DNA from: Alphaproteobacteria bacterium
Lineage (GTDB): Bacteria > Pseudomonadota > Alphaproteobacteria > UBA8366 > Aestuariispiraceae
Direction: 5' to 3'
Length of the DNA stretch: 64,000 nucleotides
Assembly (NCBI GenBank): GCA_030065235.1
Contig: JASJDC010000001.1
Span: 1 to 64,000, forward strand
Numbering within the stretch: the first letter of the stretch is position 1; every line of letters begins with the position of its first letter. The notes below the pieces were generated by a model, which was given only the letters and a program-made list of their open reading frames with translations, ran no database searches and was not told the DNA's origin. A program made the position numbers and the translations under genes. Shown piece after piece: positions 10,933 to 40,459 of the stretch.

Positions 10933-11610
10933 ATGTTGGATTTGGGTTGGAGCGAACTGATGATGGTCGCGGTCGTCACCGTGATCGTCGTCGGCCCGAA
11001 GGAACTGCCGCGTGTGTTGCGGACGGTGAACCAGACGGTGCGCAAAGTCCGGAAAATGGCCGGCGAGTTCCAATCCAGCATCGATGAAATGGCCCGCGAA
11101 GCAGAGCTGGACGACCTGCAGAAAAAGCTGCGCGATCAAGCCAACAGCGATATGCGGGATCACTTAAATACGATCGACCCAAGCGGGGAGACCGCCAAGA
11201 TCGTCGACGATGTCAAAAAGACCGTCGAGACCGAGTCCAAGGAAGCCAACTCGGTGGCGGACGGCCTGCGCGAACAGGATTTGCTCGGGGACGCGACGCC
11301 GACGAAACCCGCTGCAGCGGCCGAACCAGCCGCGCCATCGCCCGCGAAGGCTCAGAAGACGGCAGGAAAGAAGGCGCCTGGGAAAAAAGCGGCGGCGAAG
11401 AAGACGAGCGCAAAGAAGGCGACAGCCAAGAAAGCGCCGGCGAAAAAGGCGGCGAAGAAAAGCGTCGCTAAGAAGGTCGCCGTGACGACGAGCGCCGCAA
11501 AAAAAGCCGTCGCCAAGAAATCCGTCGCGAAGAAGCCGAGCGCGGCCTCGCCTGCCGCTCAGTCCGACAATCTGGCCGCAAAAACTGCTGACCGGGAGGC
11601 GGGCTCGTGA
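10933..11610 (+). CDS. tatB: Sec-independent translocase subunit TatB with long Lys/Ala-rich tail
   Basis: TatB forms with TatC the receptor for twin-arginine signal peptides. The N-terminus MLDLGWSELMMVAVVTVIVV is the membrane helix with the conserved Glu, followed by GPKELPRVLR and an amphipathic helix. The protein is 225 residues; from about residue 138 the tail is a low-complexity series of AAKK, SAKK, TAKK and APAKK units like the tail of histone H1. That tail is unusual for TatB and not needed for translocation. The tatC start overlaps the tatB stop (GTGA). Confidence 0.93.
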   Translation: MLDLGWSELMMVAVVTVIVVGPKELPRVLRTVNQTVRKVRKMAGEFQSSIDEMAREAELDDLQKKLRDQANSDMRDHLNTIDPSGETAKIVDDVKKTVETESKEANSVADGLREQDLLGDATPTKPAAAAEPAAPSPAKAQKTAGKKAPGKKAAAKKTSAKKATAKKAPAKKAAKKSVAKKVAVTTSAAKKAVAKKSVAKKPSAASPAAQSDNLAAKTADREAGS

Positions 11611-34472: not shown

Positions 34473-34740
34473 GCCTGTCGTCCCCCTGCCTCGGCGCGAA
34501 ATCCCACAATGGGCGAATGGTTTTCTTGAAGTATCGGAAATCCCAAGATAATTCGCCATCGCCCAAGTCTTACTGTTGACGAATGAGCGAGGCCCATTCA
34601 AGGTAAAACTAAGGATCGAGATCAAATAGTCGACGGCGTGGGGTCGTCGGCCCGAACTTGGTCGGATGAGCGCGCGCAAAGCGCGGCGATTGAACGTCGG
34701 CCTTGACGCCGCTCTGCAAAGAACATTGGGAGGGATATGG

Positions 34741-35799
34741 ATGTCTAAACAGGGTACACGAAACGTCTTGCTCGCGGCGGTTGCGGCCGCAGGCGTTTCA
34801 GCGGGCGTCGCGTTGAGCGGCGCAGCGGCGACAGCCGCCGATATGGTCGTCGGCGTCAGCTGGTCGAACTTCCAGGAAGAGCGTTGGAAGACCGATGAAG
34901 CGGCGATCAAGTCGGCGCTCGAAGCGGCCGGGGCCGAATATATCAGCGCCGACGCGCAAAGCTCGACGGCCAAGCAGTTGGCGGATGTGGAGAGCTTGAT
35001 CGCCCGCGGCGCCGACGCCCTGATCATTCTCGCGCAAGACGCTTCGGCCATCGGCCCGGCGGTCGTGCGCGCGGTGAATGAAGGCATCCCGGTGGTCGGC
35101 TATGACCGGCTGATCGAGAATGAGGACGCGTTCTATCTGACCTTCGACAATGTGGAAGTCGGTCGGATGCAGGCGCGCGCCGTCTTCGCGGCGCAGCCGA
35201 CAGGCAACTACGTGTTCATCAAGGGGTCGGCCCAGGATCCGAACGCAGACTTCCTGCATGGCGGCCAGCTTGAAGTGCTGCAAGCCGCGATCGACAGCGG
35301 CGCCATCAACGTTGTGGGCGAACAATATACCGACGGCTGGCTGCCGGCGAACGCCCAGCGCAACATGGAGCAGATCCTGACCGCGAACGACAACAACGTG
35401 GATGCTGTCGTGGCGTCAAACGACGGCACCGCCGGCGGGGTTGTCGCGGCGCTGACCGCGCAAGGCATGGAAGGCATTCCGGTCTCCGGTCAGGACGGCG
35501 ACCACGCCGCGCTGAACCGGGTGGCGCTGGGCACGCAAACCGTGTCGGTCTGGAAGGACGCGCGCGAGCTTGGCAAACGCGCCGGCGAAATCGCGGTCGA
35601 ACTGGCTTCCGGCACGGCGATGACCAATGTCTCCGGTCGCGTCGCTTTCAAGAGCCCGGGCGGCAATGACATGAACGCCGTGTTCCTGGCCCCGGTGCCG
35701 ATCACCCAAGACAAACTCAATCTTGTGATCGACGCCGGTTGGGTCGCCAAAGATGTCGTCTGTAAAGGCGTATCGGGCGGCGTCGCGGCCTGCAACTGA
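34741..35799 (+). CDS. xylF: D-xylose-type ABC transporter substrate-binding protein
   Basis: A 352-residue periplasmic sugar-binding protein. The signal peptide is SKQGTRNVLLAAVAAAGVSA (cleaved near ATAA). The type I periplasmic-binding core matches XylF: VGVSWSNFQEERWKTDEAAIK, then DAQSSTAKQLADVESLIARGADALIILAQDASAI and VASNDGTAGGVVAAL. It probably binds xylose or a related pentose. ATG 34741 follows GGGAGGGATATGG; the upstream frame is open but not conserved. A hairpin separates it from xylH. Confidence 0.88.
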   Translation: MSKQGTRNVLLAAVAAAGVSAGVALSGAAATAADMVVGVSWSNFQEERWKTDEAAIKSALEAAGAEYISADAQSSTAKQLADVESLIARGADALIILAQDASAIGPAVVRAVNEGIPVVGYDRLIENEDAFYLTFDNVEVGRMQARAVFAAQPTGNYVFIKGSAQDPNADFLHGGQLEVLQAAIDSGAINVVGEQYTDGWLPANAQRNMEQILTANDNNVDAVVASNDGTAGGVVAALTAQGMEGIPVSGQDGDHAALNRVALGTQTVSVWKDARELGKRAGEIAVELASGTAMTNVSGRVAFKSPGGNDMNAVFLAPVPITQDKLNLVIDAGWVAKDVVCKGVSGGVAACN

Positions 35800-35830
35800 G
35801 CGTTCGGCATCTGGAACGTGTGATCTGAAA

Positions 35831-35859
35831 CGGCGGGGTTTCCAATTCGGACCCCGCCG
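35831..35859 (+). terminator. hairpin between xylF and xylH
   Basis: CGGCGGGGT (35831-35839) and ACCCCGCCG (35851-35859) form a perfect 9-bp stem with an 11-base loop, 30 bases after the xylF stop; GGTTCTTT follows. Such hairpins commonly protect the binding-protein part of the mRNA and partly stop transcription into the permease. Confidence 0.6.
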
Positions 35860-36003
35860 GTTCTTTGTGGGGGAGGGGCGCGGCCGCGGGTCCGGCCGCC
35901 GAATGGCGGTCACGAGACCGCATCACAAGGCGGTTTCCGATCGTCGCGGCCTTCTTCGTCGAAACTCCATCGGCTAACTTCACTGGCTTAGGAACGCACC
36001 GTC

Positions 36004-37362
36004 ATGGCTGACGCCGCAGACCGACCCACCGACAAGACCGCCGCCCCTGCGGCGGATACAGCGCTCGACGAGTCGGGCGAACCCGGGCTTGAGAGGCAGA
36101 ACGCCTTTTCCCGCGCGCTGCGGGCGATGGAGGTGGACACCCGCCTCTTGGGCATGATCGCGGCGCTGTTGGTGATCTGGATCGCCTTCGACCTTCTGAC
36201 CGGCGGCCGGTTCCTGACGCCGCGCAACCTGTTCAACCTGTCGGTCCAGACCGCCTCGGTCGCGGTCATGGCGACCGGCATGGTGTTCGTCATCACCGCC
36301 CGGCATATCGATCTGTCGGTCGGCTCCCTGTTGGGCGTGATCGCCATGGTGATGGGCCTGCTGCAGGCGGAGATTCTGCCAGAATATCTCGGCTTCAACC
36401 ATCCGCTGACCTGGGTCATCACGGTCGCCGTCGGCGTCGCCATGGGGGCCGTGATCGGCGCCATGCAGGGGTTCGTGATCGGCTATCTCGCGGTCCCCGC
36501 CTTTATCGTCACCTTGGGCGGATTGCTGGTCTGGCGCGGCGCGGCCTGGTTCGTGACCGAGGGACGCACCGTCGCGCCGCTCGACGGCACATTCATGCTG
36601 TTCGGCGGCGGGGTCGCCGGCACCTTGGGCGAAATGCTCAGTTGGGTCGTCGCGGTCATCGCGGTCGCCGTGATCGTCTATGCGGCGCTACAGGATCGGC
36701 GCCGCCGCCAAATATTCCAGTTCCCGCTCAAACCGGTTTGGGCGGAATGGACCAATATCGGACTGCTCGCCGTCATGGTCTTGGGCTTCACCCTGGTCAT
36801 GAACCTCTATCCGGTGCCGCAGCGCGCGGCCCAACGGATCGCCGAGGCGGAAGGGATCCCGATCCCGCCCGAGGGTTTCGACTGGATGCACGGCATCGCG
36901 ATTCCGGTTGTGTTCGTCGCCATCGTCGCGGTGATCATGACCCTGGTCTCGAAGCGCACCAAGTTCGGCCGCTACGTCTTCGCCATGGGCGGCAACCCGC
37001 AGGCGGCGGAACTGTCCGGCATCGATACGAAGAAAATGACCATGCTGATCTTCATGGTGATGGGCATTCTCTGCGCTCTGTCCGCCGTGATCGCCTCGGC
37101 CCGCTTGCAGTCGGCGGCGAACGATCTCGGCACGCTGGATGAGTTGCGGGTGATCGCCGCAGCCGTTATCGGCGGCACGTCGCTGGCCGGCGGGGTCGGG
37201 ACGATCTATGGCGCCATCTTGGGCGCGCTTGTGATGCAGAGCCTGCAGAGCGGCATGGCGCTGGTCGGCGTCAACACTTCCCTGCAATCGATCGTGATCG
37301 GCCTGGTCTTGGTCCTCGCGGTTTATGTCGACCACATCTATCGCAGCCGGTCCAGCGACTAG
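36004..37362 (+). CDS. xylH: xylose-type ABC transporter permease
   Basis: A 452-residue inner-membrane permease of the sugar (BPD_transp_2) class, with about ten or more helices. The N-terminus is hydrophilic (about 45 residues). The motif SLAGGVGTIYGAILGALVMQSLQSGMALVG is the hallmark near the ATPase-contacting region, and GFVIGYLAVPAFIVTLGGLLVWRG is also typical. A hydrophilic segment around residue 230-250 is longer than in many RbsC-type permeases, as expected for XylH. It lies between xylF and xylG. Confidence 0.9.
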   Translation: MADAADRPTDKTAAPAADTALDESGEPGLERQNAFSRALRAMEVDTRLLGMIAALLVIWIAFDLLTGGRFLTPRNLFNLSVQTASVAVMATGMVFVITARHIDLSVGSLLGVIAMVMGLLQAEILPEYLGFNHPLTWVITVAVGVAMGAVIGAMQGFVIGYLAVPAFIVTLGGLLVWRGAAWFVTEGRTVAPLDGTFMLFGGGVAGTLGEMLSWVVAVIAVAVIVYAALQDRRRRQIFQFPLKPVWAEWTNIGLLAVMVLGFTLVMNLYPVPQRAAQRIAEAEGIPIPPEGFDWMHGIAIPVVFVAIVAVIMTLVSKRTKFGRYVFAMGGNPQAAELSGIDTKKMTMLIFMVMGILCALSAVIASARLQSAANDLGTLDELRVIAAAVIGGTSLAGGVGTIYGAILGALVMQSLQSGMALVGVNTSLQSIVIGLVLVLAVYVDHIYRSRSSD

Positions 37363-37386
37363 GCCTCGGCGCGGAGGAGCCTCAGC

Positions 37387-38199
37387 ATGAACGCCCATCC
37401 AGTTCCCAGAGACTACACGCTGGACGATTTCGCCGGTCAGACGCCGCTCGTCGAGATGCGTGGCATCAATGTCGCTTTCGGCGGCGTGAAGGCGGTGAAC
37501 GATGTCGATTGCACGCTGTTTCCGGGAGAGGTGGTCGGCCTGCTGGGCCATAACGGGGCGGGTAAATCGACCCTGATCAAGGTGTTGTCCGGCGCCTATC
37601 ACATGAATTCGGGCGAGATCTACATCAGGGGCGGCAAAGTGAATATCCAGAACGCCCGCGACGCCCGGGAGTATAATGTCGAGACGATCTACCAGACGCT
37701 TGAACTCGCCGACAATCTCGACGCCGCCTCGAACCTCTTCCTTGGGCGCGAGCTGACGACGCCGGTGGGCGCGCTCGACGATGTGAAGATGGAGGCGGAG
37801 ACCCGTGAGGTGATGGGCCGGCTGAATCCGAACTTCCGGAAATTTTCCGCGCCCGTCTCGGCGCTCTCCGGCGGCCAGCGTCAATCGGTGGCGATCGCGC
37901 GCGCGGTCTATTTCAACGCCAAGATCCTGATCATGGACGAACCGACCGCGGCCTTGGGCGTTCAGGAGACCGCGATGGTCGCGGACCTGATCCGGAAGCT
38001 GAAATCAGAGGGCATCGGCATTTTCCTGATCAGCCACGACATCCACGATGTCTTCGAACTGGCCGATCGGCTGACGGTGATGAAGAACGGCCGCCTGGTC
38101 GGCACGGTCAAGACCAAGGATGTCAGCGAGGACGATGTCCTGGGCATGATTATCCTGGGCAAATACCCAGAGCATCTGCTCGAGCCGGTTCCCGCCTGA
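37387..38199 (+). CDS. sugar ABC transporter ATP-binding protein, single domain
   Basis: A 270-residue ATPase for the upstream binding protein and permease. It has Walker [10 protein letters not shown] (about residue 56), signature LSGGQRQSV (about 161), Walker [13 protein letters not shown], and SHDIHDV as the switch. It holds only one nucleotide-binding domain, whereas classical XylG/RbsA proteins have two (about 500 residues); it resembles FrcA-type single-domain subunits and would act as a homodimer. Its start is 24 bases after the permease stop. Confidence 0.88.
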
Positions 38200-38237: not shown

Positions 38238-39365
38238 TCAGACCTTGGTTCGGCCTTGTATGACGTCGAGCGGTTTGATCGAGGATTGGACTCCCAGTTT
38301 GTCATAATTCCGGTCGAGCCAGTCCCCCGCCGCGCGGCGTCCCAGGTCGAACAGATGCTTCAGAAACGCCCATTCGGAGTTCAGTTTCGATGAGGCCCCC
38401 AACGCCTTCAGCTCATCGTTCGAGGTGATGAGATGCAGGTATATGCTGCGGTATTTTTCCGGGTCCAGCCGCCCTTCTTCGAGCAGTTCGTCGACGAAGT
38501 TGATGGCGCGGAATTCCTTCAGAAGGCTTGAATTGAAGGTGATCTCGTTCACCCGTTGGAGGATCTCCGGGGCGCTGCGCGGGGCGCCGGGGCGATAGAC
38601 CGGATTGATCTGCACCACCAGAATGTCTTGTGACTTGCTGCGGTGGAAGAACGGATACAGGACCGGGTTGCCCATATAGCCGCCGTCCCAATAGGGCGTG
38701 CCGTCCACCTCGACCGCCTTGAAGATGAAAGGCAGACAGGCCGACGCCATCACCATTTCGGGCGTCAGGTCGTTGCGTTCGAACACCTTGACCACACCGG
38801 TCTCGACATTAGTGGCGCTGATATAAAGCGCCATTTGCGTACAGCGCCGAACCCGCTCGAAATCAACCTCCTGCTCCAAAATGTCCTGCAGCGGGTTCAG
38901 GCCCAGCGGATTGAAGTCGTAGGGCGAAAACAGCCGCGTCATCATGTCGAACGCGACATAGACGGGATTGGATTCCAGGCTCCAATTGCCCATCCAGATA
39001 TCGATCGGCGAGCGTTGGATCGGGCTCAGCTTGCCTTGCTCGCTGACCGCCTTCCAGAAGCGGTGCAGCGCGGCCCGGGCGCCGTCTTCGCCGCCCTCGA
39101 CCAAACCGTCCGCTGCGACGACGGCGTTCATCGCCCCGGCGGAGGTCCCGCTGATCGCTTCGATATAGACCCGGCCGTCCTCCAGGAATTTGTCCAAAAC
39201 GCCCCAGGTATAAGCGCCATGCGCGCCGCCGCCCTGCAAGGCCAGGTTGACCCGCTTCTCGAAGACCTTGCCGGCCCGGCGCGCCGGCGCGGCCTTAGCG
39301 GCGGGCGTCTTCTTGCTTGAAGCCTTCTTGGCGGCGGCTTTCCTCGTGACTTTCTTGGCGACCAT
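38238..39365 (-). CDS. patatin-like phospholipase with Lys/Ala-rich N-terminus (DUF3734 type)
   Basis: A 375-residue patatin-fold hydrolase. The first 33 residues are MVAKKVTRKAAAKKASSKK followed by PAAKAAPARR, a histone-H1-like basic tail. The catalytic dyad is Ser75 in GTSAG and Asp in DGGYMGNP; the oxyanion loop is GGGAHGAY (about 45-52). A C-terminal DUF3734 region (about 270-375) completes it. Its start overlaps the stop of 3-hydroxybutyrate dehydrogenase (TGATG), so they are one operon. It may act on polyhydroxybutyrate or lipid in the same pathway; this is inference. Confidence 0.85.
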   Translation of the reverse strand: MVAKKVTRKAAAKKASSKKTPAAKAAPARRAGKVFEKRVNLALQGGGAHGAYTWGVLDKFLEDGRVYIEAISGTSAGAMNAVVAADGLVEGGEDGARAALHRFWKAVSEQGKLSPIQRSPIDIWMGNWSLESNPVYVAFDMMTRLFSPYDFNPLGLNPLQDILEQEVDFERVRRCTQMALYISATNVETGVVKVFERNDLTPEMVMASACLPFIFKAVEVDGTPYWDGGYMGNPVLYPFFHRSKSQDILVVQINPVYRPGAPRSAPEILQRVNEITFNSSLLKEFRAINFVDELLEEGRLDPEKYRSIYLHLITSNDELKALGASSKLNSEWAFLKHLFDLGRRAAGDWLDRNYDKLGVQSSIKPLDVIQGRTKV

Positions 39366-40153
39366 CAGTGCGCCGTCCAGCCGCCATCCACTGGCAGCGC
39401 AATGCCCGTGATCTGGCCCGCCGCATCGGTGGTCAGGAAACTGCAGGTTGCGGCCAGTTGTTCCACCGTGACGAACTGCTTTGTCGCCTGCGCCTCCAGC
39501 AACACATTGCGCTTGACCTCTTCTTCGGTCATGCCGCGCGCCTTGGCGGTGTCGGGGATTTGCGCCTCGACCAGGGGCGTCAGGACATAGCCCGGGCAAA
39601 CGGCGTTGACCGTCACGCCATATTCCGCCGCTTCCAGGGCGATCGTCTTGGTGAAGCCGACGATGCCATGCTTGGCCGCCACATAGGCCGATTTATAGGG
39701 CGAGGCGACAAGCCCGTGGGCCGAGGCCACATTGATGATTCGTCCCCAGCCGCGATCTTTCATGCCCTTCACCACCAGCCGTGTGGTGTGGAAGGCGCTG
39801 GTCAGGTTGATGGCGATGATCGCGTCCCATTTCGCAACCGGGAAGTCCTCGACCGGGCTGACATGCTGGATGCCGGCGTTGTTCACCAAGATGTCGACCG
39901 GACCCAGTTCGGCTTCGGTCTCCGCCACCATGGCCTCAATTTGGTCGGTTTTCGTCATATCCGCGCCGCTGTAGCGGACCGTGACGCCGTAGTCGTCGGC
40001 GAGTTTGGCCCGGGTCGCCTCGATTTCGGCCGCGTCGCCAAAGCCATTTAGGACGACATTAACGCCGTCCTGGCAAAAGCGCGTTGCGATTCCCAGCCCG
40101 ATGCCGCTGGTTGATCCGGTGATAATGGCTGTTCTAGGCGTGTTCACGGACAT
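39365..40153 (-). CDS. bdhA: 3-hydroxybutyrate dehydrogenase
   Basis: A 262-residue SDR that oxidises (R)-3-hydroxybutyrate to acetoacetate with NAD, at the end of PHB degradation or ketone-body use. Features: GSTSGIGLGIA (cofactor), NNAGIQHVSPVEDFP, catalytic Ser in INVASAHGLVASPYKSAY with Tyr and Lys (AYVAAKHG), and the family tail YVLTPLVEAQIPD, then GQITGIALPVDGGWTAH. Start 40153 has GAGGAGAGT upstream; an open frame extends further but is not conserved. It is first in the operon with the patatin gene. A CTGC-N3-GCAG palindrome lies about 70 bases upstream. Confidence 0.9.
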   Translation of the reverse strand: MSVNTPRTAIITGSTSGIGLGIATRFCQDGVNVVLNGFGDAAEIEATRAKLADDYGVTVRYSGADMTKTDQIEAMVAETEAELGPVDILVNNAGIQHVSPVEDFPVAKWDAIIAINLTSAFHTTRLVVKGMKDRGWGRIINVASAHGLVASPYKSAYVAAKHGIVGFTKTIALEAAEYGVTVNAVCPGYVLTPLVEAQIPDTAKARGMTEEEVKRNVLLEAQATKQFVTVEQLAATCSFLTTDAAGQITGIALPVDGGWTAH

Positions 40154-40221
40154 ACTCTCCTCAAATTGCCGGCGCTGCGGCCTTTGCTGTTGGACTGCTG
40201 CTTTGTTCGCTGTCATACCTA

Positions 40222-40236
40222 TGCTGCATCGCAGCA
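40222..40236 (-). promoter_or_regulatory. possible PhaR operator upstream of bdhA
   Basis: TGCTGC-ATC-GCAGCA is an inverted repeat with the core CTGC-N3-GCAG, the motif reported for the polyhydroxyalkanoate regulator PhaR in Paracoccus and Rhodobacter. It lies 69-83 bases upstream of the 3-hydroxybutyrate dehydrogenase start. The identification rests on motif and pathway context only. Confidence 0.4.
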
Positions 40237-40459
40237 ATTTAAAGGCCTTTTGCCGCGGCGGGCTTGAAAAGGGCGCCGCGCCGCCCCGAATATGAGGTGC
40301 TTAAGGCGGTTGCGTCTGTCGGCGTATGGGCGGACAGTCCTTTTTGAGCGACCGTTGGGCTGCGCTAGGCTTGCATGCTGCGCGTCCGCGCACGGTTTTC
40401 GCATAACGGGCGCGCTATGGTATGGAGTGGCGATGTCAGCCGGATGGAGTGAGGACGTC

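Follow-up and report, generated by a model that had tools for sequence, protein, structure and literature searches.

A putative PhaR-controlled operon coupling 3-hydroxybutyrate dehydrogenase to a patatin-like esterase in an alphaproteobacterium, with a probable role in PHB mobilisation

The closest known system to the gene pair described here is BdhA-PhaZh1 of Haloferax mediterranei, in which native PHA is degraded by PhaZh1, a patatin bound to the granule, with bdhA upstream of its gene (Liu et al. 2015, AEM 81:3029, via PMC4823750, PMC7137286). According to the latter two sources, the PhaZh1 knockout had no significant effect on PHA mobilisation (PMC4823750/PMC7137286). In Synechocystis, the patatin-domain protein Slr0060 was isolated with PHB granules and proposed to be a depolymerase, its knockout being described without a clear PHB phenotype, and its operon differs from the one presented here in that it contains a PhaF-like protein (PMC7203880). 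An alphaproteobacterial patatin, MEXAM1_RS07150 of Methylorubrum extorquens AM1, which we liken to ours by its description, is reported to be 30% identical to PhaZh1 and was upregulated in a phaR mutant relative to one of two reference strains, the account in PMC6520949 reporting no link to hbdH. In Methylorubrum, a triple depolymerase deletion left PHB degradation nearly unchanged (Orita et al. 2014, as cited in PMC6520949). The PhaR (AniA) regulon of Sinorhizobium and Bradyrhizobium uses the same operator as our locus, and its targets include phasins, PHB depolymerases, and ppa or pdhA (PMC12542648, PMC6201568). The main texts of these two papers do not use the word patatin, and the tables consulted name no target as an hbdH-patatin pair, many targets being listed there as unknown. 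The PhaR-bound S. meliloti depolymerase SMa1961 was considered as a counterpart of our patatin and rejected, because the ORF behind the site reads by eye as an alpha/beta-hydrolase. Our search, which covered open-access literature, found no earlier report of a PhaR-controlled hbdH-patatin operon.

The pair lies on the minus strand of the window, i.e., the whole stretch of 64,000 nucleotides that was analysed. The first gene of the operon, hbdH (39365..40153, minus strand, ATG start), encodes a 3-hydroxybutyrate dehydrogenase of 262 aa that scores 373.5 bits against TIGR01963, above the curated cut-off of 307.05, and the second (38238..39365, minus strand) encodes a patatin-like esterase of 375 aa, whose sole Pfam domain at E up to 0.001 is Patatin, starting from residue 41 (PF01734, E-value 3.9e-21; 76.6 bits versus a cut-off of 27.7). 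The hbdH stop codon and the patatin ATG share one base in TGATG at position 39365, which bears out the gene overlap described in the original prediction. AF2 models the patatin with high confidence (mean pLDDT 92) apart from roughly the first 20 residues, and the solved structures that match it are the patatin-type phospholipases and lipases PlpD (Z 24.5, rmsd 3.5, 247 aligned residues), CapV, CapE and plant patatin; structural novelty was rejected, as the comparison returned a plain patatin fold. Among the 154 aligned members of the patatin family, Ser75 (GTSAG) is present in 153 and Asp227 (DGG) in all, and we take these two residues to be the catalytic Ser-Asp dyad of the family.

The locus is like BdhA-PhaZh1 in its GxSxG patatin, in its PHA-producing host and in its gene order, with the 3HB dehydrogenase gene upstream of the patatin gene, hbdH taking the place that bdhA has in front of PhaZh1. 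It differs in the lipase box, which as published is GTSGG in PhaZh1 and is GTSAG in our patatin, and in its host, since Haloferax is an archaeon whose PhaR is AbrB-like and has the name alone in common. Granule binding and hydrolysis of native PHA have been demonstrated for PhaZh1, whereas our pair is known from its genes and likened by layout and description. By analogy, the pair would work like BdhA-PhaZh1, and we claim no membership of that system. We propose, with a probability of roughly 0.6, that the two genes form a PHB-mobilisation operon controlled by PhaR, in which a PhaZh1-like patatin would supply the dehydrogenase by hydrolysing PHB or its oligomers. The two gene products probably work together in mobilising stored PHB, and it is plausible, given the precedent published for an archaeon, that the patatin acts as a depolymerase.

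Several features of the surroundings were recorded. Three genes on the plus strand (34666-38199) converge on the 3' end of the operon and read from their translations as a sugar ABC transporter with binding protein, permease and ATPase. The operon region gave no sigma-70 promoter match, and no relatives were found in the phage collection searched. The same genome carries a second patatin (G000:C12:19849-20856; L110, L281), which is 49% identical and has neither a PhaR site nor hbdH upstream.

The distribution of the patatin across Alphaproteobacteria ties it to PHA synthesis. In a sample of 192 alphaproteobacterial genomes, for which completeness of at least 90% was requested, 60 carried a close family member (E up to 1e-40, a cut of our own choosing), and PhaC was found in 59 of these 60 versus 66 of the 132 others, PhaR in 49 versus 67, and PhaZ in 47 versus 41, counts in which the related genomes share ancestry, so that Fisher tests are inflated and independence is overstated. 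Of the 192 genomes, 21 contain the hbdH-patatin pair, and every one of the 21 also has PhaR. Within the PhaC-positive genomes only, the association with PhaR is absent (p 0.07 for the pair; p 0.19, in the opposite direction, for the patatin), and PhaC is therefore the firm link. This link could be partly an effect of genome size, although PhaC is present in all 14 patatin-bearing genomes no larger than 2 Mb. In a 1.7-Mb genome in which PhaR was not detected (G059), the canonical phaZ is directly preceded on the same strand, 113 bases upstream, by a patatin gene (L278 2767-5201, G059:C1).

These data also bear on the alternative that the patatin is a phospholipase or a general acylesterase acting, for example, on the lipid or protein shell of the granule or on membranes; the operator and hbdH would still belong to PHB metabolism, and the genes would be co-transcribed because the cell requires PHB turnover and membrane turnover at the same time. 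Such a role would suit the structural matches, which are patatin-type phospholipases and lipases, the Pfam label of the domain, patatin-like phospholipase, and the small PHB effect reported for granule-patatin knockouts elsewhere (PMC4823750/PMC7137286, PMC7203880). It is harder to square with PHA synthase in all but one of the patatin genomes, the smallest included, with a patatin that adjoins PhaZ, and with PhaR sites in front of 9 of the 108 patatin genes that have no hbdH, and we regard it as rather unlikely. Points that speak against the proposed depolymerase operon include the canonical PhaZ already present in the genome, the second patatin without a PhaR site, the lack of a sigma-70 promoter match, the loss of the association with PhaR within PhaC-positive genomes, and the shortage of PhaR sites at related hbdH-patatin loci, which have them no more often than unlinked loci; moreover, PHB mobilisation was unaffected or little changed in the PhaZh1 and Slr0060 knockouts according to the sources (PMC4823750/PMC7137286, PMC7203880).

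The control of the operon was approached through the region upstream of hbdH. The palindrome TGCTGC-ATC-GCAGCA at 40222-40236 is the core of a predicted PhaR operator, CTATGCTGCATCGCAGCAATT (40219..40239, no strand assigned). It stands in front of hbdH, 69-83 bases from the ATG (40153), exactly the distance given in the original prediction. The site TGCGATGCAGCA matches on both strands, without any deviation, the PhaR consensus TGCRNYGCASMA of Bradyrhizobium (PMC6201568); genome-wide, 65 copies of this consensus compare with 27 for the reversed control. Sites were scored with a symmetric PWM of 21 columns derived from S. meliloti sites in promoters rated 'Efficient' in PhaR gel shifts (PMC12542648, Table 3), in which 17 of the 20 'Efficient' sites were used and three weaker exoH sites were excluded. 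With this Sinorhizobium-derived matrix the window site reached 21.3, within the range of the training sites (16.8-28.2), the 99th percentile of the best match in random 300-base stretches being 10.6. As a positive control, a site of at least 16 was found in all 31 phasin upstream stretches scored, which came from 30 genomes of the same order with this genome (G000) represented twice, and comprised the best 29 loci plus the two from this genome among 63 matches listed. The claim of a PhaR-type site is supported by both the exact consensus and the matrix score, and the palindrome looks like a good PhaR operator at which binding is predicted.

By itself, the literal pattern CTGC-N3-GCAG is weak evidence for such a site. 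Three copies in the window, a number reached or exceeded by 27 of 100 shuffles, compare with 1.79 in shuffles, and the 72 sites genome-wide compare with 163 for the reversed pattern. This lack of excess, together with the lack of conservation of the literal pattern in relatives, is what would speak for a chance match, or for the site of another regulator, with the operon outside PhaR control. We consider that explanation improbable, given a score of 21.3 on a matrix made from PhaR-shifted promoters, the position of the other two sites of at least 16 in 464 kb upstream of known PhaR-type targets, and the recurrence of PhaR sites in relatives.

The genomic context of the operator agrees with PhaR control. 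PhaR is encoded in the genome (TIGR01848, 147.7 bits versus a cut-off of 109.45), and profile searches also found phasins, two PhaC matches and a canonical PhaZ. The phaR, phasin and PhaC genes on which the original prediction depended are thus all present, and it does not fail for want of PHA genes. In a 464-kb sample of the genome, made up of 20 stretches and the window, only three sites scored at least 16, and they stand upstream of pdhA (16.1), ppa (25.2) and hbdH (21.3), the identities of pdhA and ppa being set by Pfam; the fourth-ranked site (14.2) lies inside coding sequence. Elsewhere in this genome, sites were found at phaZ (21.1), at two phasin genes (22.8 and 24.0) and behind a thiolase gene close to phaR (20.7), the site of phaR itself is weaker (13.2), and a third, weak phasin match (L084) has none (0.5). 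Of these genes, ppa is listed as a PhaR target in S. meliloti (PMC12542648) and pdhA is a target in Bradyrhizobium (PMC6201568). Because sites are also found at pdhA, ppa, phaZ, the thiolase-gene stretch and the phasin genes, the hbdH operator fits a coherent, predicted PhaR regulon. The pdhA gene (L227 10869-12119, G000:C1), with its PhaR-like site of 16.1 upstream, also encodes a protein that has a K/A tail at the N-terminus.

Relatives were used to follow both the gene pair and the operator. The 186 patatin loci examined comprised 80 from named public genomes (the best 80 of 439), 27 from the same order and 79 from a class-wide sample, the last taken down to about 1e-66 with partial loci and one at a contig start left out. 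Nineteen loci were dropped as duplicates or for having no ATG under the start rule, among them L054 with a PWM score of 16.4, and 167 unique loci were kept, the two copies of a tandem locus (G095:C88; L188, L208) being counted unseparated. In two genomes of the same family as ours (G004 and G001), patatin N-termini and upstream stretches are the same as those of the Hwanghaeella grinnelliae and Aestuariispira insulae loci (L088 = L002; L091 = L011), which suggests a place in or near Aestuariispiraceae for our genome. In 59 of the 167 loci hbdH stands directly upstream on the same strand, and the 59 junctions include 7 one-base overlaps, 13 four-base overlaps (ATGA), 11 other overlaps of 2-60 bases and 19 spacings of 0-30 bases. 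One locus (L038) had no sequence upstream of hbdH and was excluded from the site counts, which leaves 166 loci, 58 of them hbdH-linked.

The original prediction invoked conservation of the palindrome, which failed for the literal pattern, while PhaR operators in general recur in a minority of relatives. Among the loci with hbdH, the window alone has CTGC-N3-GCAG upstream of that gene, and all 42 relatives whose upstream sequence could be used lack it; PhaR sites of at least 16 were found at 8 of the 58 hbdH-linked loci, the window included, and at 9 of the 108 unlinked ones. Against this total of 17 sites in 166 loci, column-permuted matrices gave 0.20 and 0.27 sites on average (maximum 6 in 400 runs), Markov-resampled upstream stretches gave 0.45 and 0.62 on average (maximum 4 in 120 runs), and coding stretches used as a control gave a single site. 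The remaining 50 hbdH-patatin loci have no detectable site, among them the other 13 best-matching loci of the order (L088-L100; none over 10.6) and the hbdH-patatin pair of Sinorhizobium meliloti GR4. Linkage to hbdH and the presence of a PhaR site are not tied to each other (Fisher p 0.29). On the patatin tree the sites are scattered, the well-supported branches requiring 8 or more changes, and are hardly clustered (14 changes versus 15.4 with shuffled labels), which argues that the predicted PhaR control of the family is one that has been gained or lost many times and is not visible in most species. Six distant patatins without hbdH (L103, L108, L111, L112, L220, L222), 39-44% identical, have strong PhaR sites 37-73 bases upstream.

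The patatin also has a Lys/Ala-rich N-terminal tail of about residues 1-26 (39288..39365, minus strand), the protein beginning with MVAKKVTRKAAAKKASSKKTPAAKAAPARR. The tail is real, since the first 41 codons contain no further ATG, GTG or TTG. It has no predicted secondary structure (mean pLDDT 53 for residues 1-10, 62 for 11-20 and 83 for 21-30, with the first strand at residue 28) and it is not conserved, K/A tails being present at 3 of the 59 hbdH-linked loci, the window included, all three from one taxonomic family, and at none of the 108 unlinked ones. Tails are a little more basic at loci with hbdH than at those without (p 0.013), and tail charge shows no tie to the PhaR site (p 0.41). 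Two hbdH-linked patatins with long N-terminal K/A repeats (L109 and L097, in G004 and G005) were found, L109 having a strong PhaR site as well (22.5).

Among 431 ORFs of the 464-kb sample, four have K/A-rich ends, namely those of the patatin, PdhA, an alanine-dehydrogenase/transhydrogenase-type protein and TatB. The TatB-like membrane protein is encoded within the window (10933-11610, plus strand) and has a very long AAKK C-terminal tail, with a match to the histone-like HC2 model below the cut-off. Upstream of a phasin gene of the same genome, a 240-aa protein (L083 407-1129, G000:C3) has a long AAKK N-terminal tail with a weak HC2 match and otherwise no Pfam domain. The occurrence of K/A tails on several proteins of one genome points to a habit of the lineage and to nothing specific to granules or DNA, and the tail of the patatin looks like an incidental, lineage-specific basic extension. 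The claim that it resembles the tails of PhaF or PhaM and ties a granule-bound patatin to DNA is not supported and is the least probable of the alternatives: although the 44 residues before the patatin core hold 14 K/R and 1 D/E and two hbdH-linked relatives of the same family (L097, L109) share long K/A tails, a conserved basic AAKK-type tail is not seen across the 59 linked and 108 unlinked loci, the Pfam search found no phasin or other domain besides Patatin joined to it, and three other proteins of the genome carry the same type of tail.

The operator and the link to PHB are well supported, and the PhaR-controlled mobilisation operon would work as follows. At low PHB, free PhaR would occupy the operator at 40219-40239 and repress the operon, as the published model of PhaR action has it. 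As granules form, PhaR would be drawn onto PHB, and the operon would be freed at the same time as phaZ and the phasin genes. The patatin is a Ser-Asp esterase in which no export signal is evident; presumably inside the cell, and perhaps at the granule, it would then hydrolyse PHB or its oligomers to 3-hydroxybutyrate, which HbdH, presumably translationally coupled through the gene overlap, would oxidise to acetoacetate.

Depolymerisation of PHB in Alphaproteobacteria is usually credited to PhaZ-type enzymes, yet deletion of PhaZ does not always stop it, as in Methylorubrum (as cited in PMC6520949). It is possible, at somewhat short of even odds, that the patatin family, found in 60 of 192 genomes and accompanied by PHA synthase in 59 of the 60, represents a second class of bacterial depolymerases for PHB or its oligomers that has so far gone unrecognised, and that would have been repeatedly recruited under PhaR and often coupled translationally to 3HB dehydrogenase. 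If this is true, the patatin class would explain why PHB breakdown persists after deletion of the annotated depolymerases in Methylorubrum (Orita et al. 2014, as cited in PMC6520949). The operon offers a concrete candidate for such a second depolymerase, together with the dehydrogenase it would work with and a probable site for its regulator, and its relatives are many.
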